A program made the translations under genes and the position numbers. A stretch of DNA of 45,089 nt from Nitrospirales bacterium (GTDB lineage: Bacteria > Nitrospirota > Nitrospiria > Nitrospirales > UBA8639), in contig BQIW01000031.1 in assembly GCA_021604105.1 (NCBI GenBank), positions 1 through 45,089 of the forward strand. Reading direction: 5' to 3'. Positions 1 through 30,630 of the stretch are shown one piece after another (the stretch's first letter is position 1; each line of letters opens with the position of its first letter). Under the pieces are notes generated by a model. The model was given only the letters and a program-made list of their open reading frames with translations. It ran no database searches and was not told the origin of the DNA.

Positions 1-562
1 ACGATGAGTGGTCGACGGTTCTTGTGAAATGTTTGCAACATAGTAAGTTCCCTAATCAAAAAGAATGGAAAGGACTTTCAACGCGATTTCCCACCTATTG
101 TTGGAGAAATAACTCCAGAGAGTCAATTGACCGTTCCCGGATCTCTCATTTTTTTTCTTTTTTAAATTGAGAGATTCAGCCGCCATTGACCTTCGTCCTG
201 GCAGTTGGATCCAAAATTTCCTAGCCAGATTTCCCCCTTAAATAGGAGCCTATACCCGAATTTGCTTATCACATTCTTGATCGCGTAAGGCTTCGGCTTC
301 TCCAATCATATCACCGAACGGCGATATATCCTGGCCATCGTCAGATTGGTTATGTTTGGAAACCGTGGAAAGCACCTTGCAACCTTGGAAAGCCCAAACA
401 GTTTAAAACGTGATCCCATCTTCAATATTTCCTAAAATTCGGTATGGGCGTCTTACGCACTTACCCCATTTATTTTTTTAAATTAGATTTTCAAAGCTGC
501 GGGACGTAAAATCCTTCAGTAATATTTCCGACATTATGTCGGTGTTTAAAAAAGGATCCGTA
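1..562. other. AT-rich intergenic stretch without a recognisable gene
   Basis: No convincing reading frame is seen. The only structure is a weak hairpin with 8-bp arms (141-148 and 168-175, ATCTCTCA/TGAGAGAT) around a T-rich loop, which could end transcription arriving from outside the window. The stretch is AT-rich like the gene that follows it. Confidence 0.5.
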
Positions 563-1858
563 ATGAACAGTGAAATAGAAAAATTAATTGAAAGAAAAGC
601 TGAAAGCGCCAACCTGGACTATAAAGGAGGGTTTAAGTGGCATAAAGAAAACCGGGATCTACAGTTCGAGCTCCTCAGAGATATCATGGCAATGGCGAAC
701 ACCCGAGACGGTGGAACAATCATTTTTGGAGTTGAAGATGGTAGCTTTGAATTAAAAGGTGTCAGTGAGGCAATTCGAGACTCTCTTGACCAAACAGATA
801 TTGCTCAAAGGCTCCATTGTTATGGAAGTCCCAAAGCCAAGATAGACGTGCAAAAGGCAATCATCTCAAGCAAACACGTTGTGGTCGTAAGTGTGGCCGA
901 ATTCGAGGATGTGCCAATTATCTGCACCGATTCTATTAAGAGGAACCAATCTAAGGATTTAATACTTCGTAAAGGTGCTATCTACATTTGCACCTCCGCT
1001 GCCACCACGGAGGAGATTTCTTCTGAACAAGACATTAGGGATTTAATTGGACGGGCAATGACAAAACGAGCAGATGAACTGGTACGTAATATCGAGATAG
1101 TTATTAAAGGAAAACCCATGGTCCCCACTAAAGAGACCGAGAATTTATATCAAAAGGAAATTCATGAAAGCGACAAATGGCTCACTAGTGTTCTACAAAA
1201 GGGGTTCTTAAACAATCCGAGATGGGAGCTTATTGTTTATCCTTCAAATTATGAACCGGAAAGAATCAAGAAATTACCGGAAGTTGAAAATATAGTCAGG
1301 GAATGTCAGGTTGAACTTCGAGGATGGCCTTTTCCATATGTTTCCAGTGATGGCGGATCAAGTATCTTTAATTCCGGCTTTAATGGCTTTGTTGACGCCC
1401 CAGATATCAGAGAAGGTTTTAGATTTTATCAAAGTGGACTATTCATTTTTAAAAGAACTTTGTGGGAGCACCAGAGGCAATTACAAGGACAGTTTGACAA
1501 AAAATGTCTTTCCTTTATCAGTGCAATAGAATCGTTAACTGAATTTTTATTATTCATTTCTCGAATCTATGAGACTCTAGGCAATATTAAATCTTTACAT
1601 TTGGTTGTAAACTTAATCGGTTGCAGTCAGAGACAACTGGCTTCATTCGATGGTCGTGTCCCTTTCCACGACTGGTATGTGAGTCAAGACGACCTAATTA
1701 CCTGGGAAAAAGATATCCAAATGATCGAATTACATGCTACCCACAAAGAAATAGCCAGACTCATTTCCATGCATATTTTTCATGTCTTCAATTGGAGGGA
1801 TGTAAGGGAAGATGTGATCAGAGATTGGCAGGATAGACTTTTAAATCGTCGATTTTAA
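563..1858 (+). CDS. AlbA_2 (Schlafen-type) domain protein
   Basis: The N-terminal ~160 residues resemble the AlbA_2 putative DNA/nucleotide-binding domain: an early E-x-DYK stretch, the glycine strand GGTIIFGVED, and LRKGAIYICTSAATTEE towards the domain end. The remaining ~270 residues are not recognised. AlbA_2 proteins are often annotated as ATP-binding or transcriptional regulators, and several occur in defence or mobile contexts. The ATG at 563 was chosen because AAAAAAGGA precedes it at normal spacing. An in-frame ATG at 536 would add nine residues and lacks such a site. The gene is clearly AT-richer than its downstream neighbours and stands alone, which suggests acquisition. The family is fairly sure and the function unknown. 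Confidence 0.75.
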   Translation: MNSEIEKLIERKAESANLDYKGGFKWHKENRDLQFELLRDIMAMANTRDGGTIIFGVEDGSFELKGVSEAIRDSLDQTDIAQRLHCYGSPKAKIDVQKAIISSKHVVVVSVAEFEDVPIICTDSIKRNQSKDLILRKGAIYICTSAATTEEISSEQDIRDLIGRAMTKRADELVRNIEIVIKGKPMVPTKETENLYQKEIHESDKWLTSVLQKGFLNNPRWELIVYPSNYEPERIKKLPEVENIVRECQVELRGWPFPYVSSDGGSSIFNSGFNGFVDAPDIREGFRFYQSGLFIFKRTLWEHQRQLQGQFDKKCLSFISAIESLTEFLLFISRIYETLGNIKSLHLVVNLIGCSQRQLASFDGRVPFHDWYVSQDDLITWEKDIQMIELHATHKEIARLISMHIFHVFNWRDVREDVIRDWQDRLLNRRF

Positions 1859-2104
1859 TGAGAATGGCCTTATGACCCTTTCTCTAATTTTCACCCTATC
1901 TCTAAACAAAGCCCTACCTTTATTATCATTTAACCTTTGCGACAAAAAGATGTGCTCAGGGCTTGCACTGACACATAACAAGGGAAGCTTCGTGGCGGAA
2001 CGTAAACATCAATAGCAAACTTTTTACCCTGAAAATTTAAAAGGCATTCTTTCGTTTTCTCCAGTGGTTTACACTATTAATCTTTTCCCGCTATACAAAC
2101 CAAC

Positions 2105-3466
2105 GTGAACTCCCACAAGACAACCATGATGAGAGCTTTGGGTCTGACAACCCTCTGCCTGTTGTTCCTGCTAGTTCCCCCAGCGACGGCGATGGGGAAG
2201 GATGTTGATTGGAAGGCGACCGTAAGCGAGGCCGTCGACACTTTGCAGAACTATCTTCGCTTCGACACGACCAACCCGCCGGGTGATGTCACCGAGGCTG
2301 CCGACTTTCTTCAGAAGGTTCTTGAGAAAGAGGGGATCACAGTCACGCGGTACGAAGCTGCACCGGGCAAAATCAATCTGTTAGCCCGACTCAAGGGCAC
2401 GGGGAAGGCCAAGCCTATCTTACTGCTCCACCATATGGATGTAGTGCCTGCCGATGCCAGTCGCTGGGATGGCGTCGATCCTTTTGGCGGCGAGATGAAA
2501 GAAGGCCACATCTGGGGCCGGGGCGCGATCGACATGAAAGGCACCGGTGTACTGCAACTCTACGCCTTTCTGACGCTGGCGCGGCAGAAGGTCTCTCTCG
2601 ACCGCGATGTCATTTTCATGGCGGTGAACGATGAAGAAATCGGTGGGACGATGGGGACGCGCTATATGCTCGACCACCACTATAACGAACTCGATCCCGA
2701 GTATGTTCTGGACGAGGGAGGGTTCGGCAGTCGAGAAATTTTTGTGGACGGGAAGTTGGTTTTCGGCATTTCCGTGGCGGAGAAGCGGGCGCTCTGGCTC
2801 CGTCTGACGGCCCACGGCACCGCTGGACACGGCTCACAACCGCATGATCAGAATCCCAATGACACGCTGATGCGTGCGCTCAATCGGCTCTTCAGTTCAC
2901 CATTTCCGACCATCCCCAATCCGGTTCTTAATGCACTTGAGAGCCAGCTTGGGCCACTTGCACCAAACCGGTTTACGAACGCCATCCGGCAGACGACGAT
3001 TTCGCTCACCTCGCTCCGATCGGGTGTGGGCGATCCGCCCAAGGCGAATGTCATCCCCTCGCTGGCCACTGCAACTCTCGACGCTCGTTTGCTGCCTGGT
3101 ATGGATGCCGAAGCTTTTTTGGCAAAGGTGCAGTCCAGACTCGGCGATGAGATCGACGTTGAGGTCATTCACCCCGCAAGTCAGTCCATTGTAACGCCGC
3201 ATGATACCGCGATGTATCGAGCACTGTCCGGGGCCATCACACGGCACCATCCCGACGCGACCGTCGTGCCGATGATTATTCCTTACGGAACCGATTCGAG
3301 GATGTTTCGTCTGCGCGGAGCCAAATGCTATGGCATCCTTCCCCTTTTGCTAAGCACCGAACTCGCCACGTCTATCCATGGTGACGCTGAGCGAATCCCT
3401 GTCGACCAATTCGAGACGGGAATCCGTATCTATTACGAGAGCCTGGTTGAAGCCGCCGCCCGCTAA
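2105..3466 (+). CDS. Secreted M20-family metallopeptidase
   Basis: A predicted exported zinc peptidase or amidohydrolase of the M20/M25/M40 family (453 aa, near the family's usual length). The hydrophobic segment at residues ~10-30 followed by ATAMGKD looks like a signal peptide. The di-zinc site is visible: H110-x-D112 in HHMDVVP, bridging D143 in GRGAIDMKG, the E177/E178 catalytic pair in DEEIGG, D203-E204 in LDEGGFG, and a late His in SIHGDAE. A dimerisation domain lies between. The start is uncertain: GTG at 2105 or ATG at 2126/2129, none with a clear ribosome site. The substrate cannot be read from sequence; PM20D1-like and carboxypeptidase-like enzymes share this layout. It converges on the sigma-factor gene. 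Confidence 0.85.
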   Translation: MNSHKTTMMRALGLTTLCLLFLLVPPATAMGKDVDWKATVSEAVDTLQNYLRFDTTNPPGDVTEAADFLQKVLEKEGITVTRYEAAPGKINLLARLKGTGKAKPILLLHHMDVVPADASRWDGVDPFGGEMKEGHIWGRGAIDMKGTGVLQLYAFLTLARQKVSLDRDVIFMAVNDEEIGGTMGTRYMLDHHYNELDPEYVLDEGGFGSREIFVDGKLVFGISVAEKRALWLRLTAHGTAGHGSQPHDQNPNDTLMRALNRLFSSPFPTIPNPVLNALESQLGPLAPNRFTNAIRQTTISLTSLRSGVGDPPKANVIPSLATATLDARLLPGMDAEAFLAKVQSRLGDEIDVEVIHPASQSIVTPHDTAMYRALSGAITRHHPDATVVPMIIPYGTDSRMFRLRGAKCYGILPLLLSTELATSIHGDAERIPVDQFETGIRIYYESLVEAAAR

Positions 3467-3599
3467 CGCTTCGGTTCCCGATCCGAACTCCAGCCCTTTG
3501 TTCCCCTTAAGGCGCGAAAAACCCCTGTTTAAGAAAACCCCATACAGAATCGGGTTCAGCAATCCGACTCCAAGTTATTCTGCATTCCTCTCGCACCGT

Positions 3600-4406
3600 T
3601 CACGCACAGGACTTAAGGGCACGGGATTTTGAGGCATAGGGATTGGACTCATCCATGTATGGAGCCAAGGCCTGACGAACTTTTGTCCTGGCGCGGTGTA
3701 ACAGCACACGCTGATTGGATTCGGAAACGCCCAGCATCCGGCGGAGTTCCTCGGATTCAACCCCCTCCACATCCCGCAGAAGGATCACTTGGCGCTGCAA
3801 GGCCGGAAGGGTGTGAATGACGGCATATATCCGCTCGACCATTTCCTTATTCAACAGCTTCCGTTCGGGTGAGGCTTCCGTTTGGGAGGAAATGATTCCG
3901 GAATAATTTCCAGGCCACCTCTCTCCTCCAGGCGTAACGGGCAGCGCATCCACCATGTCGATTCCTCCTTGATCGGCATCGGAAGCCTTTTCTGGAAATT
4001 CCACGTACCGGCTTTCCCGCACCCCTTGCGTTTTGGCCCGATTGACCAGAATGCGAAAGATCCACGTTTTTATCGACGAGCGCCCCTCAAAGCGATGAAT
4101 GCCTTTCAGCACCGCCATCCAGGTATCTTGCACGACCTCTTCGGCCACTGCCTCGCTATGCACAAAGGTCAAGGCGACTCGACGTAATGGTGAATGATAG
4201 CGTTCGACCAATTCCTGAAAAGCTGTCTCTTCGCCGCATCGAACGCGTTCCACTAAGGCCGCCTCGGCAGGATCGTCTTCCGCGGGACCTTCGTGACGGT
4301 CGTGGCCTTCGAATACCCGGAGTGTCGGGGTCGCGACTTTTCTGAGCCGACCTGAAGCGGGTGCACTGAACAGACCATCCATCGATTCTGCTGTGATTGT
4401 ACTCAT
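3600..4406 (-). CDS. ECF-type RNA polymerase sigma-70 factor
   Basis: A sigma factor of 268 aa with region 2 at about residues 55-125 (LVERYHSPLRRVAL, then the DTWMAVLKGI helix and FEGRSSIKTWIFRI) and region 4 near the C-terminus (ALPALQRQVILLRDVEG, then GVSESNQRVLLHRARTK, a helix-turn-helix for the -35 element). It lacks the region 1.1 and 3 bulk of primary sigmas. It has an unusually long N-terminal extension of ~50 residues. ATG 4406 is preferred because TGGAGGAG sits six bases upstream; an in-frame ATG at 4430 would abut the preceding stop. It follows the STAS gene by 24 bases on the same strand, so the two probably form an operon and the STAS protein may act on its regulation. Its regulon is unknown. 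Confidence 0.88.
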   Translation of the reverse strand: MSTITAESMDGLFSAPASGRLRKVATPTLRVFEGHDRHEGPAEDDPAEAALVERVRCGEETAFQELVERYHSPLRRVALTFVHSEAVAEEVVQDTWMAVLKGIHRFEGRSSIKTWIFRILVNRAKTQGVRESRYVEFPEKASDADQGGIDMVDALPVTPGGERWPGNYSGIISSQTEASPERKLLNKEMVERIYAVIHTLPALQRQVILLRDVEGVESEELRRMLGVSESNQRVLLHRARTKVRQALAPYMDESNPYASKSRALKSCA

Positions 4407-4430
4407 GAAATGCTCCTCCATCGAAACCAT

Positions 4431-4688
4431 TTAGGTAAATAAGATCTGCTGAATGAATGACGGACAATTTTTGATGCCACAGCCTTGGGTGATGAGCCGA
4501 CGAATCATGCGGACCCCATCCTCTCCCACAAAACTCACCGCTGAACAATCAAGCACCACATTGTTGCCTTGAGCCAATAGGCCCTGACATTCGATCTCCA
4601 CCACGCTGATCCATTCCGATACGATTCGTCCTTCGATTTCCACAGTCGTCGTTCCTTCCTGTGTAGCTTTGACCGTGAGCCGAACCAT
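4431..4688 (-). CDS. STAS-domain protein (anti-sigma-factor-antagonist-like)
   Basis: Eighty-five residues spanning one STAS domain: strands VRLTVKATQ, TTVEIEGRI and NNVVLDCSAVSFV, then the loop and helix that in SpoIIAA-type antagonists carry the phosphorylated serine (motif DSSG). Here the loop reads G55-E56-D57-G58, so the serine is missing and an acidic residue occupies its place. Known STAS antagonists bind anti-sigma kinases when unphosphorylated. A permanently acidic loop could be a constitutive 'phosphorylated' state or mark a different role; this is inference. It lies directly upstream of the ECF sigma gene, which supports a regulatory link. No strong ribosome-binding site is visible. 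Confidence 0.75.
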   Translation of the reverse strand: MVRLTVKATQEGTTTVEIEGRIVSEWISVVEIECQGLLAQGNNVVLDCSAVSFVGEDGVRMIRRLITQGCGIKNCPSFIQQILFT

Positions 4689-4761
4689 GAGTCAGGGTCT
4701 TTCATTATTTGATGTGAATTGTTTCATACAAAGGGTATTGAGCAACCATCGGGCCAAAAGA

Positions 4762-4798
4762 AAACCGGCCACTCAGACAGTATCCAAGTGGCCGGTTT
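4762..4798 (-). terminator. Perfect 12-bp hairpin between the sigma-54 activator and the STAS gene
   Basis: The arms AAACCGGCCACT (4762-4773) and AGTGGCCGGTTT (4787-4798) pair perfectly around a 13-base loop. Read on the minus strand the stem is followed by TCTTTT. On the plus strand a T run comes only after a gap of several bases. It probably ends transcription of the activator gene and separates it from the STAS-sigma unit. Confidence 0.7.
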
Positions 4799-4841
4799 CA
4801 ATGAAGTTTTTTATTATTTGATTGATGAATTTCTGAGCGGT

Positions 4842-4893
4842 ATTCCCAATATTTTTTCCCAATATTTCGTGACGGTCACAACATATTGGGAAT
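4842..4893. repeat. Cluster of inverted/direct TCCCAATAT motifs behind the sigma-54 activator
   Basis: ATTCCCAATAT (4842-4852) is matched by its inverse ATATTGGGAAT (4883-4893). A further direct copy, TCCCAATATT, lies at 4857-4866 inside the loop, and a GTGAC-G-GTCAC palindrome (4869-4879) sits towards the right of the loop. It starts six bases after the stop codon of the activator gene. It may be a second termination structure or a multi-site protein-binding element; the sequence alone does not decide. Confidence 0.5.
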
Positions 4894-4898
4894 CTCTC

Positions 4899-7352
4899 CT
4901 ATTTTTTTCTTGTAATTCCCAGCTTCTTCATTCGGGCTTCCAAGGTGGTGGGTTTCAACCCCAGCAGCTCTGCGGCCCCATCCTTTCCACTGACCCGCCA
5001 ACTTGTCAGTTCCAGGATATCCATGATATGCAGCCGCTCACGCTCCTCCAATGTCATGACAGATGAAACCACCTCGTCTGCCCGCCCACCCGTCGACAAT
5101 TCGATGGGTTCCAGGGAAGATCCTTCCGTAAGAATGACGGCCCGTTCGATGATATGTTCCAACTCGCGGATATTCCCGGGCCAGGAATATTGCCGCAACG
5201 CCGACATCATCGATTCGGGAATCCGGTCGATTTTTTTTCCTAAATTCGTGGCGCATTTCCGCACAAAATATTGCGCCAGGAGCGGAATGTCTCCTTCCCG
5301 TTCCCGAAGCGAGGGAAGATGAATCGGAAACACATTCAGACGATAGTACAGATCGGACCGATACTGCCCCGTTCGGGACAATTGCTCGAGATCCCGATTC
5401 GTCGCGGCAATGACCCGGACGTTGACCTTAAAGGTTTGCGTCCCTCCGACTCGTTCAAACTCCCCCTCTTGGAGGACCCGTAGCAGCTTCGCCTGCAAAT
5501 CCAGAGGCAGTTCGCCGATTTCGTCCAGAAAAATCGTCCCTTTGTCGGCCAATTCAAACCGTCCGATTTTTTTGGTTAATGCTCCGGTGAATGCGCCCTT
5601 CTCATGCCCGAAGAATTCGCTTTCGATCAAGCCGGCAGGAATGGCGGCACAATTGACTTTGACCAGCGGCTTGGATTTTCGAGGACTCAGGTTATGAATG
5701 GCCCTGGCGATCAACTCCTTCCCGGTTCCGGTCTCCCCCGTCACCAGTACGGTCGAATCGGTGGGAGCCACCCGCTCGACATTGCGCAAGACTTTTTTGA
5801 GAGTCGTTGACGATCCAATCACCTCCTCAAAATTATGCACACTTTGGATTTCCTCCCGCAGATACGTATTCTGCGCTTCCAGCCTGGCCTTTTCCTGTTC
5901 CACGAGGACTTTGTCGGTGATATCCAGAAACATGGTCCGGGTATAGGTCCCGCTGGGATCGGGCCTGGACCACCATTGGATCCAAAGGGGTTTCCCCGTG
6001 TCCTTGCGACGCAATTCCAGCACCACCCCACTGGTATCCGTCCCACGTCCAATCGAATCCAATGCCTCTTTCATTCGCTTTTGCGCTTCCGGAGTATCGG
6101 GGATAAACGATTTGCCGTACGTCCCTTCCACCTGATCGGGCGTGATGCCCAGGGTATGCATCGCCGCACGGTTCGCCCGGATAAACCTTGAATCCACCCC
6201 TTCGTTCACATAGGCAATCGGCGCCTCATCGAATAGGTCCCGCAATTGTTCTTCACTTTCCGCAAGCCTGGCATGGATTTTCTGGCGTTCTAATTCCGCC
6301 CCTGCCCTGGCGCCGAAAATTCGAAAGAGCGGAAGCAGCCTGGCATCCATAGGCATGGGTCGCACATCCAACGCGGCCAAGTGCCCCAGCACTTCACCGG
6401 CTTGGTTGAGCAACGGAATGGCCAAATAACTTTCGGCCGCCAGATCGATGAGTCCGTTTTCATGGGGAAATAGTTGTTGAATCCGTTCAGGAATATGGCA
6501 GATTTCCCCCGCAAGCACTTTTTGGCAGGGGCTATGTTTCAAATCATATTCAAAGTTTTCAATGAAGGCCTCGCCGTTCCAAAAGGCCAGAGTTCTCACT
6601 CGACTCGAATCGGCCATGAGTTGCCCCACAAAGGCATACCGGACACCCAGCGCTTTAGCCAGGTTGCATGCCAGTGCCTGGAAAAATTCCCCTCCGGAGG
6701 TCGAAGCGGTGCCTTCATCGACGAGCCGCAGGATTAAATCACTTTTCCTGAGGGCTTGGTCCAACTGAACCCGTTCAAGTTCCGCCAACGCCCGAGCGAC
6801 GAAAATACGCATGATGGAAGCCGTATAGTCCCCATTGGGCATCGGCTTATCATCGAGCACCGCCAAATGCCCGGCCACCTTTCCGGAAGCATTGATGAGG
6901 GGAAGGCCGCAATAACTGATGGCTTCCCAGTCTTTAATGACTTGGACACCAGGGTAACAATCGGCCAAACCGTCGGCATGATGGACCACCTGATGAGTCA
7001 AAACCACGGCACAGGGACCACCAGCCGGCACCTGGAAACGAGGGACCAATCCGTTCGGTGACCATCCGGCTTTTGAATAAAAACATCCGTCCGCTCGATT
7101 GAATTCCGAGAGGTAGGCATATTTCACTCCCAACGCCCTGGCCAGCTCCTCGACCAACGTGTCAAAAAATTTCTCTCCCGTCTGCGCCTCCACCCCTTTG
7201 ACTACTCGCTGGAGCACTTCGTCCTGGAGCACAGGCACGGGACCGAGGGAAGACAGCTGAGCGGAAGCGGCCGAAGGGACGGACTCTCCCTCAGAGTGCA
7301 ATGGAGACGTTGTTTGTACCTCAGCCAATACACCCTCCTCTGAAATGGCCAT
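4899..7352 (-). CDS. Sigma-54-dependent transcriptional activator (GAF-GAF-PAS-AAA+-HTH)
   Basis: An 817-aa bacterial enhancer-binding protein. Two similar GAF sensor domains lie at about residues 50-195 and 210-355, so the sensor half looks like an internal duplication. A PAS domain follows at ~365-485, then an AAA+ domain with Walker A GETGTGKE (539-546), the sigma-54-contacting GAFTGA loop (586-591), Walker B FLDE (608-611), and a Fis-type helix-turn-helix at ~785-817. All residues needed to drive sigma-54 polymerase appear present. The signal sensed is unknown; FhlA- and NorR-like proteins use GAF domains for small ligands. The gene is divergent from the glucan-enzyme operon, but I found no sigma-54 promoter there that would make it the target. 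No clear ribosome site supports the start. Confidence 0.9.
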
Positions 7353-18336: not shown

Positions 18337-18554
18337 TGAGGCTGTTGAAAAAAAGCCGCCAGCGGCGTTCTCGTCATTTTCCCGTGCTCACGTACTGGAA
18401 GTACGCTCTGCCCGCAAAAATGACTGCGGCCTTGCTGGACGGACCCTTCGGGAAGACTCAGGGCATGCTTTTTTGAACCGCCCCGAGGTCTCTGATATGC
18501 AACGTGGCTGGGGGTCAATATGCTCTTGGAAATTATTATTATTCAACACTCCCT
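18337..18554 (+). mobile_element. MITE-like element, copy 1 (218 bp)
   Basis: It begins TGAGGCTGTTGAA and ends TTCAACACTCCCT, imperfect terminal inverted repeats, and is flanked by TAA at 18334-18336 and 18555-18557. The left ~110 bases match copies 2 and 3 closely: GCCGCCAGCGGCGTTCTCG, then GTGCTCACGTACT and GCGGCCTTGCTGGACGGA. The right half is diverged and about 24 bases longer. No transposase is encoded, so it would need enzymes from a related full-length element elsewhere. Confidence 0.85.
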
Positions 18555-22656: not shown

Positions 22657-23475
22657 TTAGGACATTCGGGGGGATTGGTCTTTTTCCTTTTTCCACTTAT
22701 ACCAGATCGTTTCATTGCTCCCATGCGGATAAATTAATCGCTTCAGCGCAATGTAGGGTCGCCACAAATAGCGGTGATATCGTCTATTTAAATCCGATCG
22801 CTGCGCCAACTGCTGTTCATTCTCGGATAACATCTGCGGTTGAAACGTGTGTTTGTGTTTATACAGATGATAGAGATCTTCTCGAATCAACCGTTGGAAG
22901 ACCTTCTCAGTCAGCGCGCCCACCCAACCCTGTCGAACCGGAACAGGCAGACAAATTTGAAAATCGATGAGATAGGGCTTTCCCTCGGTTGAACAAATGA
23001 TATTACCCCGTTTATTCAAGTCCGCATAGAAAATGCGCCGCCGGTGAACCGCCTGAACAATGACCCGTAATTGGTCAAAAAAGTCCGGAGCCAGCGATGT
23101 GGCATATCTGGCCATGGCCGGATCTCCCACCACCAGGTTGAATTGTTCCTGGATGCGCCTTTCAATTTCATGAAGCGTGTGCCCCTCAATAAATCGATGA
23201 AAATACCCTCGTTTCCCATATCGCGGACCTAAAGCGGGAATGCCCGGGAGATCAGACACCATCTGATAGATGCGATATTCCCGCCTGGATATCCACCCCG
23301 TCAGGGGGCGAAACAGCCAACCCAGCACAAAGCGAAAGTCGCTCAGCTTAAGCACATACCCTTCATTTGCCTGGTTCTTATAGAGGAGGTTACGAGAAAA
23401 GAAGTCATCTTTCAAAATGCGCTGAAAGGCATAGCGTTGCCCTTCAATCATAACGTGGGATGGATAGGCAGGCAT
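22657..23475 (-). CDS. Small RIO/Kdo-kinase-like protein kinase
   Basis: A 272-aa protein with protein-kinase-fold motifs: K43 in YVLKLSDF, E66 in RREYRI, the catalytic loop Y150-A-D152-L-N-K-R-G-N158, and the metal-binding L169-I-D171-F. Such short kinases resemble RIO and lipopolysaccharide (Kdo/WaaP) kinases, so the substrate may be a protein or a cell-surface sugar. ATG 23475 is chosen for GGGAAG four bases upstream. The frame stays open upstream into MITE copy 2 up to an ATG at 23586, which would add 37 residues, 13 of them from the element. Which start is used is unknown. Confidence 0.75.
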   Translation of the reverse strand: MPAYPSHVMIEGQRYAFQRILKDDFFSRNLLYKNQANEGYVLKLSDFRFVLGWLFRPLTGWISRREYRIYQMVSDLPGIPALGPRYGKRGYFHRFIEGHTLHEIERRIQEQFNLVVGDPAMARYATSLAPDFFDQLRVIVQAVHRRRIFYADLNKRGNIICSTEGKPYLIDFQICLPVPVRQGWVGALTEKVFQRLIREDLYHLYKHKHTFQPQMLSENEQQLAQRSDLNRRYHRYLWRPYIALKRLIYPHGSNETIWYKWKKEKDQSPRMS

Positions 23476-23546
23476 CAGGCTTCCCGCACTGACATCGAAC
23501 TCCCTACTCCTTGCGAGATGAAGCAACCCAGTGAAGATTGGAACAA

Positions 23547-23740
23547 CGGGCCTGTTGAAAAAAGCCGCCAGCGGCGTTCTCGCCATTTTTTCGTGCTCAC
23601 GTACTAAATGTACCCTCCCGCGCGAAAAAACGGCTGCGGCCTTGCTGGACGGATCTTTTTGAACCGACCCGGAGCCTTAAATGAGTAATCTTATCCTAGG
23701 CAAATTTGCCCTTGAAAATCATTAGTATTCAATACTCCCA
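23547..23740 (+). mobile_element. MITE-like element, copy 2 (194 bp)
   Basis: Ends CGGGCCTGTTGAA and TTCAATACTCCCA form terminal inverted repeats, flanked by CAA at 23544-23546 and 23741-23743. It is alike to copy 3 throughout, including GACCCGGAGCCT, ATGAGTAATCT and CAAATTTGCCCTTGAA in the right half. Its minus strand carries an ATG (23586) in frame with the kinase gene that lies next to its left end. Confidence 0.88.
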
Positions 23741-24064
23741 CAATGTACCTCAAATGAATGATATTTTCATCCATTTCGAGATCTTCAGAGCTACCCCAGG
23801 ATGCCTGATGGTGGGGAATGGATACGGTTCGGGGTCAGCGCAGTAAGTACGCTATCAACCAAGAAACGGCCTACTCAGACACTGGGAATGATGATCCGGA
23901 CTAGCCTTATTCGAGTTCTCAAGGTATAAATAGGAAACTCATCTGATCGGGACACGTACGGGCCTGTACGAAGCCTTTGTGGCACAGGTTATTTGCCTTC
24001 GGACAGCGTGTTGTGCCCAAGGAATGAATCAGCAATACCCAGGCTTTTCGCCGAGAAGGAGAAC
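23741..24064. other. Upstream region of the GH15 gene
   Basis: No gene is seen. A CGTAC-GGGCCT-GTACG palindrome lies at about 23956-23971, and a TATAAAT box near 23925 could be a -10 element without a good -35 partner. The last 12 bases hold the ribosome site AAGGAG for the GH15 gene. Confidence 0.4.
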
Positions 24065-25897
24065 ATGCCCTATCAGCCCATCGAAAATTACGGCCTGATC
24101 GGAAACATGCAGACGACCGCACTGGTCGGTATGAACGGGTCCATCGATTGGTTCTGCTTTCCCTATTTCGACTCTCCCAGCGTGTTCTGCGCGATCCTGG
24201 ATGATGCCAAGGGGGGACGGTTTAAGATCGCTCCCGTTCCAGACGGCGTCAAATCCAAACAGTACTATTGGCCCGACACCAATGTTCTCGTGACCCGGTT
24301 TCATACTCCTGCCGGAGTCGGGCGAATAATCGATTTTATGCCGGTCGGATTCCACCCCTCCAACTATATCCGACACGGTTTGATCCGCCGGGTACAAGCC
24401 ATCAGAAAATCGATGACCTTTCGTCTCGAATGCCGTCCGGCATTTAATTATGGTCGTGATACCCATACCCTCACGATGGCCAAAGATGGGGTGCGCTTTC
24501 AATCTCCGGGCCTGACGCTTCGACTTGGATCCACGGTTCCACTGACGCAGGACGACAACATGATCGTCACCGAATTTACCATTCAAGAAGGAGAGGAGGT
24601 CGATTTTTGTCTGCAAGAGGTGGGACCTGACCACACCCAGACCACCTTCTCCTGCCCGGAAATACAAGCGGAAGAGTTATTTAAACACACGGTCGACCAT
24701 TGGCGTCGATGGCTATCCAAATGCACCTACACCGGTCGCTGGCGGGAAATGGTCCATCGCTCGGCTTTGGTTCTTAAATTGTTGACGTTCCAGCCAACCG
24801 GGGCGATTGTCGCCGCGCCAACCTGCAGTCTTCCCGAAGAGATCGGCGGGGTTCGGAATTGGGATTATCGCTATACCTGGATCAGGGACGCCGCCTTTAC
24901 CTTATATGGCTTATTACGTATCGGTTTTACCGAAGAGGCTTCGGCCTTCATGCAGTGGCTGGAAGCCCGCTGTCATGAATTGAATCCTGACGGATCCTTA
25001 CAACTGATGTACGGTATCGAGGGACGCCACCAACTCACCGAAGAAACATTGTCTCATCTCGAGGGCTATCGCGGCTCACGACCCGTCCGGGTGGGCAATG
25101 GCGCCTACAACCAACTCCAACTCGATATTTACGGGGAATTAATGGATTCCGTGTATCTCTATAATAAATACGGCACACCCATTTCCTACGATCTCTGGAA
25201 ACACCTTCGCCGCATGATCAACTGGGTCTGCGACAACTGGCAGCGCACCGACGAAGGCATATGGGAAGTGCGAGGCGGCCAGCAACATTTTGTCTATTCT
25301 AAATTGATGTGCTGGGTGGCCGTGGACCGTGGACTACGTCTGGCAGAAAAACGATCCTTCCCTGCCGACCACGAGCATTGGTTAAAAACCCGGGATTGTA
25401 TCTATGAAGAAATTATGGCCAAGGGATGGGACGCACAATGTCAGGCTTTTATCCAGCGATATGGCAGCACTTCGTTGGATGCGGCGAATTTAGTGATGCC
25501 TCTCGTGTTTTTTGTGTCCCCGACCGACCCTCGTATGCTCAGGACCCTGGATGCCATCAACCGGAAGCCGGAACAAGGAGGTCTGGTCTCCAACGGACTG
25601 GTCTATCGGTATAATTTATCCGAAATCCAGGACGGACTGGATGGAGAGGAAGGCACCTTCAATCTTTGTACGTTCTGGCTCGTCGAAGCCATGACCCGCG
25701 CAGGGCAGGCGGATCGCAACCGCTTAGAAGAAGCCCGTCTTGTATTTGAGCAAATGCTCGGTTATGCCAACCACCTGGGACTTTATGCCGAAGAAACCGG
25801 CCATCACGGTGAGGCCCTCGGCAATTTCCCGCAAGCCTTTACGCATCTCGCCCTCATCAGCGCAGCCTTCAATCTGGACCGGGCCCTGGGTAAATAA
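24065..25897 (+). CDS. GH15-family glucan hydrolase (glucoamylase/trehalase-like)
   Basis: A 610-aa protein. The N-terminal beta-sandwich shows the family start [38 protein letters not shown]. The catalytic (alpha/alpha)6 domain has [20 protein letters not shown] with the general-acid region, and [15 protein letters not shown] near the C-terminus with the probable general base Glu. GH15 enzymes release glucose from glycogen-like chains or split trehalose, and this sub-branch includes bacterial trehalases. No signal peptide, so cytoplasmic. ATG 24065 is set by AAGGAG; the frame is open up to 23993 but unsupported there. It complements the debranching and GH63-like enzymes encoded 12 kb upstream. 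Confidence 0.9.
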
Positions 25898-25999: not shown

Positions 26000-26700
26000 A
26001 TGCATGTCATCATTGGATGCGGGAATCTCTATCGAAAGGATGACGGGATAGGAGTCGTTGTGGCTCACCGACTCCAGTCATATTTTTCCGAACATCCTCA
26101 ATCCGATCTTCAGATTATTGAGACAGGCACCAATGGGATCGATGTGTTGCTTCAGGCCCATGGGGCCGCCAACCTGACCATTATGGGTCTGTTGAAAAAA
26201 GCCGCCAGCGGCGTTCTCGCCATTTTCCCGTGCTCACGTACTCAGCGTACGCTCCGCGCGTCAAAACGGCTGCGGTCTTGCCGGACGGACTTTTTTGAAC
26301 CGACCCGGAGCCTTTGATGAGTAATCTCATCCTGCGCAAATTTGCCCTTGAACATCCTTATTATTCAACACTCCCATTAACGATGCCTGTTCCAGCAACT
26401 CCGAACCGGGTACCATCTTTCACGTCTCCGGCCATTGACCTCATGAAACGGCCTTCTCCAAGTTTCAACCCGCATAATTTTCGTAGGGATCATGCCGTTC
26501 ATGCCGGCCGGATCATCTTTCAGGATGCGTTCCCCCAAGATATCCCCGTCTTTCTCATTGAGGTCTTCGATACCGCCTTTGGAGAAAATCTGAGCCCGAC
26601 TGTCGCCCCCTCGGTTGAAAAGACGTGCGCCATGATCATTTCATTTATTCACGAATCTTCCCATACACCTTTGCCGACTTACCAACCACCAACTCTCTAA
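26000..26700 (+). pseudogene. [NiFe]-hydrogenase maturation protease, disrupted by a MITE
   Basis: ATG 26000 opens MHVIIGCGNLYRKDDGIGVV, the nickel-binding N-terminus of HyaD/HycI/HoxW-type endopeptidases, and continues to GAANLTI. There the 193-bp element at 26184-26376 interrupts it. Beyond the element the original frame resumes as DACSSNSEPGTIFHVSGH, then meets a TGA. A further frameshift near 26465 is needed to reach FNPHNFRRDHAVHAGRIIFQ and DIPVFLIEVFDTAFGENLSP. Insertion, stop and frameshift together make it non-functional. The family cleaves the C-terminus of the hydrogenase large subunit after nickel loading. No hydrogenase subunit genes are in this window. Confidence 0.88.
26184..26376 (+). 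mobile_element. MITE-like element, copy 3 (193 bp), inside the protease gene
   Basis: TGGGTCTGTTGAA at the left and TTCAACACTCCCA at the right are 13-bp terminal inverted repeats with two mismatches. The target repeat TTA lies at 26181-26183 and 26377-26379. Deleting the element with one TTA restores ACC-ATT-AAC-GAT-GCC, in frame across the junction of the protease gene, which independently fixes its borders. Confidence 0.93.
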
Positions 26701-26837: not shown

Positions 26838-27050
26838 ATGATTGACACCGAATCCATTGAACGAGCTTCGGAAGAAGCCTTCTCATTTTACGTGTCCTCT
26901 GACATGGACCATTCCCTGCGCTGTGTCAACATAGGGAACGCCGCAGCTCGCGCCCTCAAGCATTTCGCTCAGACGGGAAAAGTCTTAGCAAACCGGCACC
27001 TCTGGTTTCACCAACACCGACCGTCTTGCCCGGATCGCAAAGGATTATGA
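26838..27050 (+). CDS. Small hypothetical protein coupled to the nickel permease
   Basis: A 70-aa frame starting MIDTESIERASEEAFSFYVS and ending PDRKGL, whose TGA overlaps the permease ATG (ATGA at 27047-27050). The overlap suggests translational coupling. The N-terminal ~45 residues look like a helical domain, while the last ~20 look less protein-like, so a truncated or frameshifted larger protein is possible. No family is recognised. Confidence 0.45.
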   Translation: MIDTESIERASEEAFSFYVSSDMDHSLRCVNIGNAAARALKHFAQTGKVLANRHLWFHQHRPSCPDRKGL

Positions 27051-27751
27051 TGCTCAGTATTCTCGGATTAGGATTTTTAATGGGTATGCGACATGCTTGT
27101 GAGGCTGATCATGCCGCAGCCGTAGCTTCTTTAGCCACCCGAAGCGGGTCGATCGCCCACACGGTCAAACAGGGTATGGTCTGGGGATTGGGGCATACGT
27201 TGACGTTATTGATCTTCAGTTCGCTGGTTTTGATGTTGGGCAGCATTATTCCCGAACGATTCGCACAGGGCTTGGAACTCATGGTAGGTGTGATGCTGGT
27301 TGGATTGGGAATCGACGTGTTCCGACGGCTACGAAAAAACCGGATCCATTTTCATGTTCACCACCATCCGGATCGGCCTCCCCACTTTCATGCACATGCG
27401 CATACCGAACCCACACACCCTGACCATACGTCCCATGATCATGCGCATGGTTTTCCTTATCGTGCCTTGCTGATCGGCCTGATGCACGGGATGGCCGGAT
27501 CAGCCGCGCTGATCCTCTTAACTCTGAACGCGACCCTGTCAATGAGTCAGGCCATCATGTATATCCTCCTTTTCGGGTTAGGATCGATATTCGGCATGGG
27601 CCTCCTGTCCGTGGTCATGGCTATTCCTTTTTGGTACTCAGCCCGATCCCTGACTTGGCTCCATAACGGGCTTCAGGCTTGCGTGGCAGTGATGACCACC
27701 ATTCTGGGGATGGTGATGGCATTTTCCTCAGGATCCTCACTCTGGCATTAA
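27047..27751 (+). CDS. NicO/UreH-type nickel (cobalt) permease
   Basis: A 234-aa inner-membrane transporter with about six hydrophobic segments. The first carries the nickel-transporter signature H16-x4-D21-H22 (MGMRHACEADHAAAVA). A long cytosolic or periplasmic loop at residues ~100-140 is packed with histidines (HFHVHHHPD, HFHAHAHTE, HTSHDHAHG), as expected for metal collection. A second motif, GLMHGMAGSAALILL, follows. It is related to UreH and RcnA; uptake rather than efflux is inferred from the NikR gene directly downstream. AAAGGA precedes the ATG pair at 27047/27050. It supplies nickel for hydrogenase or urease, neither of which is encoded in the window. Confidence 0.88.
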   Translation: MMLSILGLGFLMGMRHACEADHAAAVASLATRSGSIAHTVKQGMVWGLGHTLTLLIFSSLVLMLGSIIPERFAQGLELMVGVMLVGLGIDVFRRLRKNRIHFHVHHHPDRPPHFHAHAHTEPTHPDHTSHDHAHGFPYRALLIGLMHGMAGSAALILLTLNATLSMSQAIMYILLFGLGSIFGMGLLSVVMAIPFWYSARSLTWLHNGLQACVAVMTTILGMVMAFSSGSSLWH

Positions 27752-27931: not shown

Positions 27932-28354
27932 ATGACAATGAGTCAATTGGTCCGCTTTGGAGTTTCTCTTGAAGAAACACTCCTTGCCGCATTTGATCAG
28001 CACATCAACCGGAAAGGATACCAGAATCGCTCTGAGGCGATTCGAGACCTCATCCGCAATCAGCTTGTAGGAGAAGAATGGGGTGGAAACAAAGAAACTG
28101 TCGGCACCATAACCCTTGTGTATGACCATCATCAATCAGATGTGCTGCAACAATTAACTCACCATCAGCACGAATACGGGAAGCAAATCATTTCGAATTT
28201 GCATGTGCATTTGGATCACGACCATTGTCTGGAGGTCATTGTGGTCAGAGGGCGAAGTTCAGCTCTTGTTGATTTAGCCAATCTGCTGATTAAAACCAAA
28301 GGGGTCAAGCATGGACAACTCACAATGACGACGACGGGAAAGGCAGTGAAATAG
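27932..28354 (+). CDS. nikR: Nickel-responsive regulator NikR
   Basis: A 140-aa ribbon-helix-helix repressor. The N-terminal DNA-binding part reads LVRFGVSLEETLLAAFDQHI, then YQNRSEAIRDLIRNQL. The C-terminal ACT-like domain holds the square-planar nickel site at H80, H91, H93 and C99, which line up with E. coli H76, H87, H89 and C95 at a constant offset of four. ATG 27932 is set by GGAAGG; the longer frame from 27818 is not supported. It sits between the permease and the TonB receptor, and a candidate box overlaps the receptor promoter region. Under nickel it should shut off uptake genes. Confidence 0.95.
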   Translation: MTMSQLVRFGVSLEETLLAAFDQHINRKGYQNRSEAIRDLIRNQLVGEEWGGNKETVGTITLVYDHHQSDVLQQLTHHQHEYGKQIISNLHVHLDHDHCLEVIVVRGRSSALVDLANLLIKTKGVKHGQLTMTTTGKAVK

Positions 28355-28557: not shown

Positions 28558-30630
28558 ATGGGTATGCGGAACCTTCACGCGCTGCCGGTATGTTTCCCGG
28601 CCTGTGCTCTCTTCAGCCTCCTATGGGCCTTTTCGGCGTCAGGCCATGACCAAGAAGAGGTCACCGTGTTAGAAGAAGTCCAGGTCGTTGGAGAACGTCC
28701 TATTGCTGCCTCTTCCAATCGAATCATTCTTAATGAGGATATCCTGCTTCAGCCTCAAGGCCGGCCTGCAGATTTATTACGGTTGGCTCCCGGCCTTATT
28801 ACCTTGGAACATTCAGGCGGTGCCGGAAAGGCCGATCAGTTTCTTCTGCGTGGCTTTGACGCCGATCATGGCACGGACCTGGCCCTTCACGTAGATGGGA
28901 TGCCCATTAATATGCGCAGCCATGCCCATGGGCAAGGATACGGTGACATTAATTTCATTATTCCGGAAACCATCGAAGAAATTAGCGTGAAAAAAGGACC
29001 GTACCATGTGGAATATGGGGATTTTGCCACCGCCGGGGCCGCCAATTATGTCACCCGTGAGTCGGTTCCCCAAACCATCGTGCAATCCGCCGGCGGGAAT
29101 TTCAATACCCAACGGCATCTATTCATGACCTCTCCCGCGCACGATACATTCCGCACACTTTTTGCGGGTGAATTTTATTACACCGACGGCCCCTATGACT
29201 TTGTCAATCGCAATACCCGATATAACGGACTGGCGAAACTGACGGTGGATCCCTCTGCGACCTCTCAACTCAGTGTGACCCTTTCCCAATATTATGGACG
29301 ATGGAATGGTTCGGGCCAGCTTCCTTTGCGGGAAGTAACGTCCGGGGGGGTGGACCGCTTTGGTTCCCTTGATCCTTCCGAAGGCGGGAAATCGCTACGT
29401 AGCACCGGTCGATTGGATTACCATTACGACATTCCCGGCGGAGGGACGGCATTCGCCAGACTATGGGCTCAATATTATTACCTGTCACTGTTCAGCAACT
29501 TCACATTTTATCTCAACGATCCGGTCGAGGGTGACGGCATTGAACAAACCGACCGACGATGGTTGACAGGAAGCGATGTCGGTTATCGCCAAATATTTCG
29601 ACTGCTCAATTATGAGGGCATTATGACGGCCGGTCTTCAGACACGCTTCGATAAAATCCATGTGCGTTTGGGCACACAACAGAAACGCTCGTCCCTGGCT
29701 ATCACGCAGGAATCAGACATTTTCGAGGCCTCCTATTCTCCTTATGTCAAATTGGACCTGCAATTCCTTCCCTGGTTGCGATTGGTGGGAGGTGGCAGGG
29801 TCGACGTCTTCACGTATAACGTGAAAGATCGTTGCGGGACAGGTTGTTCGGAAAGACCGAACGGGACCGCCTCTAATGCCATCGCCAGCGGAAAAGGCAA
29901 TCTTGTTTTTGGTCCCTGGAACCAAACGGAATTCTTCGTAAATGTTGGAACCGGGTTTCACAGCAATGATGCGCGGGAAGCCGTAGAAAATCCGTCGACG
30001 AACAGCTTAACTCGAGCCATTGGCTATGAAATCGGCATTCGGAGCCGCCCGTGGACCTGGTCCGAATTCCTAGCCACATTTTGGCTCCTGGACCTGGGAT
30101 CTGAACTGGTATTCGTAGGGGATGAAGGGACAACGGAACCGCGAGGCAAAACGCGTCGCCTGGGAACAGAATTCAGCTCTCGAATCACCCCGCTGGATTG
30201 GCTTTCCATTCGAGGAGATATCACATATACCCATGCCGAGTTCCGGAAAACAGGGGATTCCGTCCCTTTGGCGCCTCAGTTCACCGCATTTTCATCGGTC
30301 ACAGCCCGCTTACCAATTGGACTATCCGGAACATTGCAAATGTTGACCGTGGGCAGCCGGGCCGGCACGGAAGATAACCATGTGAAACTGGAACCCTTTA
30401 CGATTTTTGACCTGGTTCTTCGCTACAAGATCCCCCTTGAGCCACCAACCGGACGCCTGGAGGGCTTTTTTAGCATTCGTAATGTGACCGATACCGATTG
30501 GCGTCAGGCACAGTTTTATTATGAGTCCCGTCTCCCAGGAGAACCCGCCGGAGGTGTTGCCGATATCCACTTTGTCCCTGGCACTCCACGGATGTTCATG
30601 GGTGGACTGACATGGTTTTTCCCAGCATAA
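28558..30630 (+). CDS. TonB-dependent outer-membrane receptor, probably for nickel
   Basis: A 690-aa outer-membrane receptor. Residues ~1-30 are a signal peptide ending at about FSASGHDQ. A TonB-box-like stretch (EEVTVLEEVQVV) is followed by the plug domain (PADLLRLAPGLITLEHSGG, FLLRGFDADHGTDLALHVDG, VEYGDFATAGAANYVTRE), then a ~500-residue beta-barrel rich in aromatic strands ending in GGLTWFFPA. The plug contains the histidine-rich MRSHAHGQGYGD. Nickel as ligand is inferred from the adjoining NikR and permease genes and the NikR-like box in its promoter region. The start is ATG 28558 or 28564; no clear ribosome site. Confidence 0.88.
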   Translation: MGMRNLHALPVCFPACALFSLLWAFSASGHDQEEVTVLEEVQVVGERPIAASSNRIILNEDILLQPQGRPADLLRLAPGLITLEHSGGAGKADQFLLRGFDADHGTDLALHVDGMPINMRSHAHGQGYGDINFIIPETIEEISVKKGPYHVEYGDFATAGAANYVTRESVPQTIVQSAGGNFNTQRHLFMTSPAHDTFRTLFAGEFYYTDGPYDFVNRNTRYNGLAKLTVDPSATSQLSVTLSQYYGRWNGSGQLPLREVTSGGVDRFGSLDPSEGGKSLRSTGRLDYHYDIPGGGTAFARLWAQYYYLSLFSNFTFYLNDPVEGDGIEQTDRRWLTGSDVGYRQIFRLLNYEGIMTAGLQTRFDKIHVRLGTQQKRSSLAITQESDIFEASYSPYVKLDLQFLPWLRLVGGGRVDVFTYNVKDRCGTGCSERPNGTASNAIASGKGNLVFGPWNQTEFFVNVGTGFHSNDAREAVENPSTNSLTRAIGYEIGIRSRPWTWSEFLATFWLLDLGSELVFVGDEGTTEPRGKTRRLGTEFSSRITPLDWLSIRGDITYTHAEFRKTGDSVPLAPQFTAFSSVTARLPIGLSGTLQMLTVGSRAGTEDNHVKLEPFTIFDLVLRYKIPLEPPTGRLEGFFSIRNVTDTDWRQAQFYYESRLPGEPAGGVADIHFVPGTPRMFMGGLTWFFPA

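Follow-up and report, generated by a model that had tools for sequence, protein, structure and literature searches.

A MITE-split pseudogene of a [NiFe]-hydrogenase maturation protease, probably left over from an alternative maturation module in a Nitrospirales bacterium

Upstream of an intact set of nickel-uptake genes in a Nitrospirales genome (G000) lies a pseudogene of a HupW/HybD-type [NiFe]-hydrogenase maturation protease, which has been disabled by a 191-bp MITE and by a separate 1-bp insertion. The window analysed is a stretch of 45,089 nucleotides (contig C31) of a 4.9-Mb genome that was assembled in 217 contigs and is 96% complete with 4.4% contamination; most of the genomes used in the comparison are MAGs. 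The pseudogene is real, and a MITE-made pseudogene is by itself ordinary. In our preferred reading, to which we assign a probability of about 0.68, it would be what remains of an alternative maturation module, whose protease processes the large subunit (HydL) of the group 3b hydrogenase in relatives and has become redundant here. What deserves further attention is the wider pattern, in which one hydrogenase may be served by two maturation modules that exclude each other while the protease not in use decays.

The protease fragments and the inserted element

The two halves of the protease lie on either side of the element (Table 1). The N-terminal fragment reads MHVIIGCGNLYRKDDGIG...AANLTI, and the C-terminal fragment reads DACSSNSEPGT...PTL. 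Profile search with both halves joined gave a match to PF01750 (HycI) of 34 bits against a cut-off of 23, and the joined protein shares an identity of 81%, 80%, 75% and 73% with the intact orthologs of the relatives G010, G018, G017 and G014, respectively, the region of the 5' fragment being 83-89% identical. The joined match, together with the identity of about 75-81% to the orthologs of G010, G018 and G017, argues that the halves represent a protease and no chance resemblance. The intact orthologs scored 114-118 bits with TIGR00072 (113.7 bits and 7e-33 in one match; cut-off 47.45), and fell below the cut-offs of the TIGR00140 (HyaD/HybD) and TIGR00142 (HycI) models. In addition, the metal ligands E16, D62 and H93 of HybD align with D15, D63 and H93 of the intact orthologs, which by analogy with HybD presumably bind the metal. 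In the window, D15 belongs to the first fragment, the second starts with D63, and H93 lies beyond the 1-bp insertion.

A single uninterrupted reading frame is present in G010, G018, G017 and G014 and absent from the window copy, which carries both the MITE and the 1-bp insertion. DNA alignment placed the inserted base in GGCCATTGACC of the window, compared to GGCCG-TGACC in G010 and G018; downstream of it, the frame is open through to the normal end. The changes on the window branch include A42T, K58N, W97R, T117P and A138P, with five non-synonymous to two synonymous changes at positions that are identical in all four orthologs. Compared to the orthologs, W97R is a further candidate lesion.

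The element is short and non-coding, with the inverted ends GGGTCTGTTGAA and GGGAGTGTTGAA, as is typical of a MITE. A probe of 27 bases from its left end detected 146 copies in the 4.9-Mb genome (73 per strand), compared to none for the reversed control. The full copies scored (n=40) are 92-100% identical, 28 of the 32 sampled copies are 191 bp in length, and an exact 5-bp target duplication was found in 17 of these 32, against 0.03 expected by chance. Upon removal of the element and one 5-bp copy, the protease reads ...CTG ACC ATT ATC GAT GCC..., which encodes LTIIDA as in G018, G017 and G014. Few of the sampled copies sit inside a reading frame that rejoins, a scan result that is an undercount, as the protease site itself was missed because of the second lesion there. 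Two more copies are present in the window, at 18339-18553 and 23548-23739. The latter abuts the 5' end of a minus-strand gene (22657-23586), the listed ORF start of which (MARTPLAAFFNRP) is read out of the element; the starts in relatives lie further in. An element-like sequence (GGGAGTGTTGAATAATAA...) was also found in G004 (G004:C304; L098:2641-2760) directly behind hydL, where the accessory cassette is missing. A search of the literature gave no relevant report of a MITE in Nitrospira.

The original prediction, made from the window alone, had identified a hydrogenase maturation protease split by a MITE, in agreement with the PF01750 match, the orthologs and the 191-bp element. It was also correct in that removal of the element restores the frame, but the proposed LTIND join is wrong, since the element plus 5 bp has to be taken out, which yields the LTI-I-DACSS of the orthologs, and the target duplication is 5 bp (ATTAT/ATTAA) rather than TTA. 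Both the stop and the frameshift that it placed downstream exist, yet they are a single lesion, the 1-bp insertion, instead of two. Its order of events, "interrupted and then decayed", has to be withdrawn, because the MITE and the 1-bp insertion could have come either way round and a single copy cannot give their order.

Table 1. Coordinates of the features in the window
Feature	Position	Strand	Basis and remarks
GH15-family (trehalase/glucoamylase-like) gene	23993..25897	+	PF00723 E=3e-79; conserved upstream neighbour
Protease 5' fragment	26000..26184	+	ATG at 26000; residues 1-61 and part of 62; alignment with orthologs
Left target-site duplication ATTAT	26180..26184	+	5-bp duplication is the rule for the element
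191-bp MITE, ends GGGTCTGTTGAA...TTCAACACTCCC	26185..26375	+	Copies compared genome-wide
Right target-site duplication ATTAA, one mismatch to left copy	26376..26380	+	Flank comparison, alignment
Protease 3' fragment	26381..26700	+	Resumes CGATGCC; TAA stop 26698-26700
1-bp insertion giving in-frame TGA (26436-26438) and frameshift	26434..26438	+	Alignment with G010, G018, G017 and G014
W97R missense in otherwise invariant HNFRW motif (candidate lesion)	26485..26487	+	Ortholog alignment
70-codon scar ORF, HypF residues 1-19 fused to HypB about 229-281	26838..27050	+	blastp to HypF and HypB of G016
NicO/NiCoT-type nickel transporter, intact	27047..27751	+	PF03824 E=3e-5, below curated cut-off; dN/dS 0.08-0.11
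NikR nickel regulator, intact	27932..28354	+	PF08753 E=1e-30; dN/dS <0.07
TonB-dependent receptor, candidate outer-membrane nickel importer	28558..30630	+	PF00593/PF07715

The nickel locus and the hyp remnant

The window and the genomes G010, G018 and G017 share the gene order GH15 - protease - 70-codon ORF - NiCoT - NikR - TonB receptor, and the GH15 neighbour is also found in G014, G003, G012 and the outgroups G009 and G019. At the same position, G016 has a truncated protease followed by HypF, HypC, a GmhA-like protein, HypD, HypE, HypA, HypB and NiCoT. The 70-codon ORF joins the two ends of this array: its copy in G017 matches HypB at 65%, and blastn placed the junction at G016 coordinates 445 to 7053. 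Judged by these alignments, the ORF is the scar of a ~6.6 kb hypF-hypB deletion that is common to four genomes (the window and three relatives), an older and larger event adjoining the protease, which the original prediction had overlooked. Both Hyp clusters, described below, have a conserved gene for a GmhA/DiaA-like sugar isomerase located between hypC and hypD (L050:5132-5839; L083:12342-13034). In the outgroups G009 and G019, GH15 is followed by the nickel genes with neither the protease nor any hyp gene in between, which suggests that the maturation module probably arrived at the locus after the split from them.

Among G010, G018 and G017, the dN/dS of the protease is 0.215 (bootstrap 95% 0.14-0.34), compared to 0.65 (0.35-1.18) for the scar ORF, which is of the same age and gave a higher value than the protease in 99.7% of bootstraps. 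These genomes all share the hyp deletion, and the protease therefore stayed useful after the hyp genes had gone. NiCoT and NikR are more constrained than the protease, with dN/dS of <0.12 and <0.07, respectively. As had been proposed, the nickel-uptake set is intact, including the NicO-type transporter, NikR and the TonB receptor, whose position next to NikR points to nickel as its likely substrate. A search with the E. coli NikR operator consensus gave 12 matches, no more than the 12.7 expected, none of them near the nickel genes; Rfam gave no RNA family in the window. In other genomes, the NiCoT gene beside NikR is deleted or reduced to remnants (G014 and G003) or frameshifted (G012; L046, L049, L189), and thus erosion reaches the nickel set as well in some members of the genus.

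Hydrogenases, Hyp sets and the state of the protease in relatives

On contig C85, G000 has an operon encoding a diaphorase subunit, HydS, HydL, HycI, HypA, HypF, HypC, HypD and HypE, which we read as a 3b-type [NiFe] hydrogenase from its gene content, not from a HydDB class. The structural hydrogenase is intact, and its own protease is adjacent. Further PF00374 matches on contigs C54, C35 and C80 extend no further than the first 67-69 positions of the profile and were set aside as hydrogenases; we take them to be complex I subunits (Nuo). Urease alpha was not found in the G000 genome, and urease was therefore rejected as the enzyme that the nickel genes serve. HypB was not found over the cut-off in G000, nor in the other genomes that carry the local cassette (L051, L095, L096, L100), one of which, G008, has an estimated completeness of 100%. 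The original prediction that the nickel set must serve something else is therefore borne out; it had offered another nickel enzyme or a second protease, and the 3b hydrogenase with its adjacent protease is present on C85. Its conclusion that a hydrogenase-linked function is being lost as such is not supported, since the 3b hydrogenase is intact and what has been lost is a second, redundant protease.

The six genes from HycI to HypE are missing beside HydL in G010, G018, G014, G017, G004 and G002. A Hyp cluster that includes HypB (cluster 2) is located elsewhere in the first five of these genomes, and another (cluster 1) is present in G002 and G016. HypD search revealed a single copy in each of 17 genomes; G005 has two fragments at contig ends, apparently parts of the same gene, and G012 and G015 gave none. 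The 3b-type and the cluster-1/2 type of HypD never occur in one genome among those examined. G017 (L052, G017:C297) has a group 2a HupL of 531 aa, with DSCLVCTVH and AHDQKTGKELARFRIG, next to a HupW-type protease of its own and to the beginning of Hyp cluster 2. This locus is the likely source of cluster 2, which was kept without hup genes in G010, G018, G014 and G004. No group 2a large subunit was found in G000, G010, G018 or G014. Moreover, G010 and G018 are single-contig genomes, in which the 3b enzyme is the only PF00374 protein besides short complex-I-like matches. With this as their one hydrogenase, their single Hyp set and single protease therefore have no other known client.

The original prediction had proposed a comparison of the locus in related strains, which yielded four intact orthologs at the same locus (G010, G018, G014 and G017) and independent losses in G016, G003 and G012. 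The 3b operons of the former four have neither protease nor hyp genes. In G010, G018 and G014, PF01750 matched nothing besides the locus protease, and G017 has in addition the second protease of its group 2a locus, with an identity of 47% to the first. Besides the MITE and the 1-bp insertion of G000, the protease has internal deletions in G016 and G003 and is wholly gone from G012. A 3b-type HycI fragment is present in G016 and a 3b-type HypF-C-D-E set in G003, HydL being found in neither; no 3b hydrogenase was detected in G012. The protease was inactivated or lost by four different routes, three of them in genomes with 3b accessory genes and one in the genome where no 3b was found. It is intact in 4/4 genomes classed as "needed" and broken or lost in 4/4 classed as "not needed" (Fisher exact p=0.014, a value that ignores shared ancestry, with three or four independent contrasts only in this reciprocal pattern). 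G004 and G002, which have a 3b HydL without an adjacent protease, lie outside the 4/4 count, the locus being unreadable there owing to contig ends or incomplete genomes. In the rpoB tree, G003 is sister to G014, and G000 with G004 is sister to G010 with G018; the contrasts therefore fall between close relatives.

In genomes without an adjacent HycI, HydL keeps a C-terminal extension after DPCISCATH. HydL ends with FLKFTRE(E/K)(V/I)S where HycI is adjacent (G000, G009, G008, G007 and G005), compared to FLTLT(K/R)E(D/N)... in genomes that lack the six genes, as seen in the contrasted extensions FLKFTREKVS and FLTLTKENLPPAMS. The HydL of G001 is intermediate (FLKFTKEELPTSPQI), with an insertion between HydL and the hyp genes. 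The hydL gene of G000 is 87-99% identical to that of G010 in successive 90-base windows, followed by an abrupt switch just after CATHFL to a G009-like end. By rpoB, G000 is nearest to G004 (97.3%), which is without the cassette, whereas its HydL is nearer to that of G010 (94.7%) than to that of G004 (91.5%). This disagreement, together with the abrupt switch within hydL, points to probable recombination at the 3b locus. The data would have a simple explanation if G000 had re-acquired the cassette; the alternative, in which G000 retained the cassette while the deletion allele spread, is not separated from it by divergence.

Readings of the loss and comparison with known systems

In the preferred reading, the original module at the locus would have run from the protease through the hyp and GmhA-like genes to NiCoT in the order of G016, and the pseudogene would be its last piece. 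Comparison with G016 shows that the older deletion fused HypF codon 19 to HypB codon ~230 and thereby removed the hyp part. In relatives without a protease in the 3b operon, the locus protease would most likely trim the C-terminal extension of HydL, as we infer from the extension itself, the sole HycI-family protease and the precedent of FrxA discussed below. In G000, the 3b operon has its own protease and Hyp genes, which would make the locus copy redundant and free to be lost; the nickel-uptake and NikR genes would have been kept intact because the 3b hydrogenase still needs nickel.

Against this reading, the nearest relatives of the protease outside Nitrospirales are mostly cyanobacterial (44-52% identity). 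We take these matches to be of the HupW kind by family position, presumably acting on group 2a HupL. They would suit a protease that had been dedicated to a group 2a HupL since lost, so that the copies in G010, G018 and G014 are orphans awaiting decay and the 3b enzyme is processed otherwise or not at all. Such a history would agree with the group 2a hydrogenase retained in G017 together with a related protease (47% identity) and adjoining Hyp genes, and with the usual narrow specificity of maturation proteases, each of which is considered to act on a single hydrogenase class (PMC2670836). Similarly, group-2a-like maturation proteases without 2a genes were reported in two lineage IVa MAGs, the hydrogenase genes being suggested to be missing through incompleteness (PMC12342949). 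Unlike this suggestion, G010 and G018 have a 2a-type protease without a group 2a large subunit in single-contig genomes, to which incompleteness does not apply. Linkage to or co-occurrence with group 2a hupSL, as in HupW, was not found either; G017 has the 2a genes, but another protease is located there. Moreover, the constraint on the protease persists (0.215, compared to 0.65 for the scar ORF) in lineages all sharing the hyp deletion, HydL keeps its extension where no other HycI-family protease was found, and loss of the protease tracks the presence of 3b accessory genes or the absence of 3b. Altogether, we consider a protease orphaned by the loss of group 2a unlikely.

Two further explanations concern the lesions themselves. 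Fragmented assemblies such as this one, and repeated elements that are often misassembled, raise the question of whether the gene is intact in the living strain. However, the MITE lies within a 45-kb contig with matching target duplications, unique flanks and conserved synteny, the 1-bp insertion and W97R are independent of it, and the same gene has been hit by different lesions in G016 and G003, which makes an artefact very improbable. That the split gene works as two polypeptides, or is switched on through excision of the element, is harder still to credit: despite a C-terminal fragment whose frame is open to the normal stop, the three ligand positions are divided between the fragments, a stop follows in frame after the join, and W97 is changed. 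To our knowledge, no precise-excision switch exists with such elements.

For lineage IV marine Nitrospira as a whole, to which G000 probably belongs, we give even odds to a broader model: the 3b hydrogenase would be matured by either of two mutually exclusive modules, and a switch between them would go along with a different HydL C-terminus and allow the other protease to decay. The local module would be HycI-HypAFCDE without HypB, and the borrowed group-2a-type module would combine a remote Hyp cluster with HypB and the HupW-type protease at the NikR locus. No description of such an exchange was found in the literature searched. Group 3b hydrogenases are common in Nitrospirales, with an unknown phenotype (PMC10579370, PMC12342949). 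For this enzyme, Nitrospira genomes that consist of a single contig apparently depend on a Hyp set and a protease of the 2a type. If so, a 2a-type protease could not signal a 2a hydrogenase missing from incomplete MAGs (PMC12342949), and these genomes would provide a natural experiment on what fixes the specificity between protease and hydrogenase.

Compared to known systems, the element resembles MITEs with 5-bp target duplications in being short and non-coding, with inverted ends, many copies and a clean 5-bp duplication. The intact orthologs align over their full length with E. coli HybD (1CFZ), including the metal-ligand positions, as members of the HybD/HupD/HycI family (PF01750, TIGR00072), from which the window copy differs in being MITE-split and frameshifted. 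Despite the similarity to cyanobacterial HupW, to which the closest non-Nitrospirales sequences mostly belong, the protease is present in G010, G018 and G014, where no group 2a hydrogenase was found, and its proposed client is the 3b large subunit. A further parallel is the soluble hydrogenase I (SHI) of P. furiosus, which we take to be a group 3b enzyme. SHI is processed by FrxA, a HybD-like protease (PMC2865534). There, as proposed here, the protease that acts on a group 3b hydrogenase is of the HybD type and its gene lies outside the operon; lineage IV Nitrospira differs in that some 3b operons have an adjacent protease, for which the remote one appears to substitute in the others.
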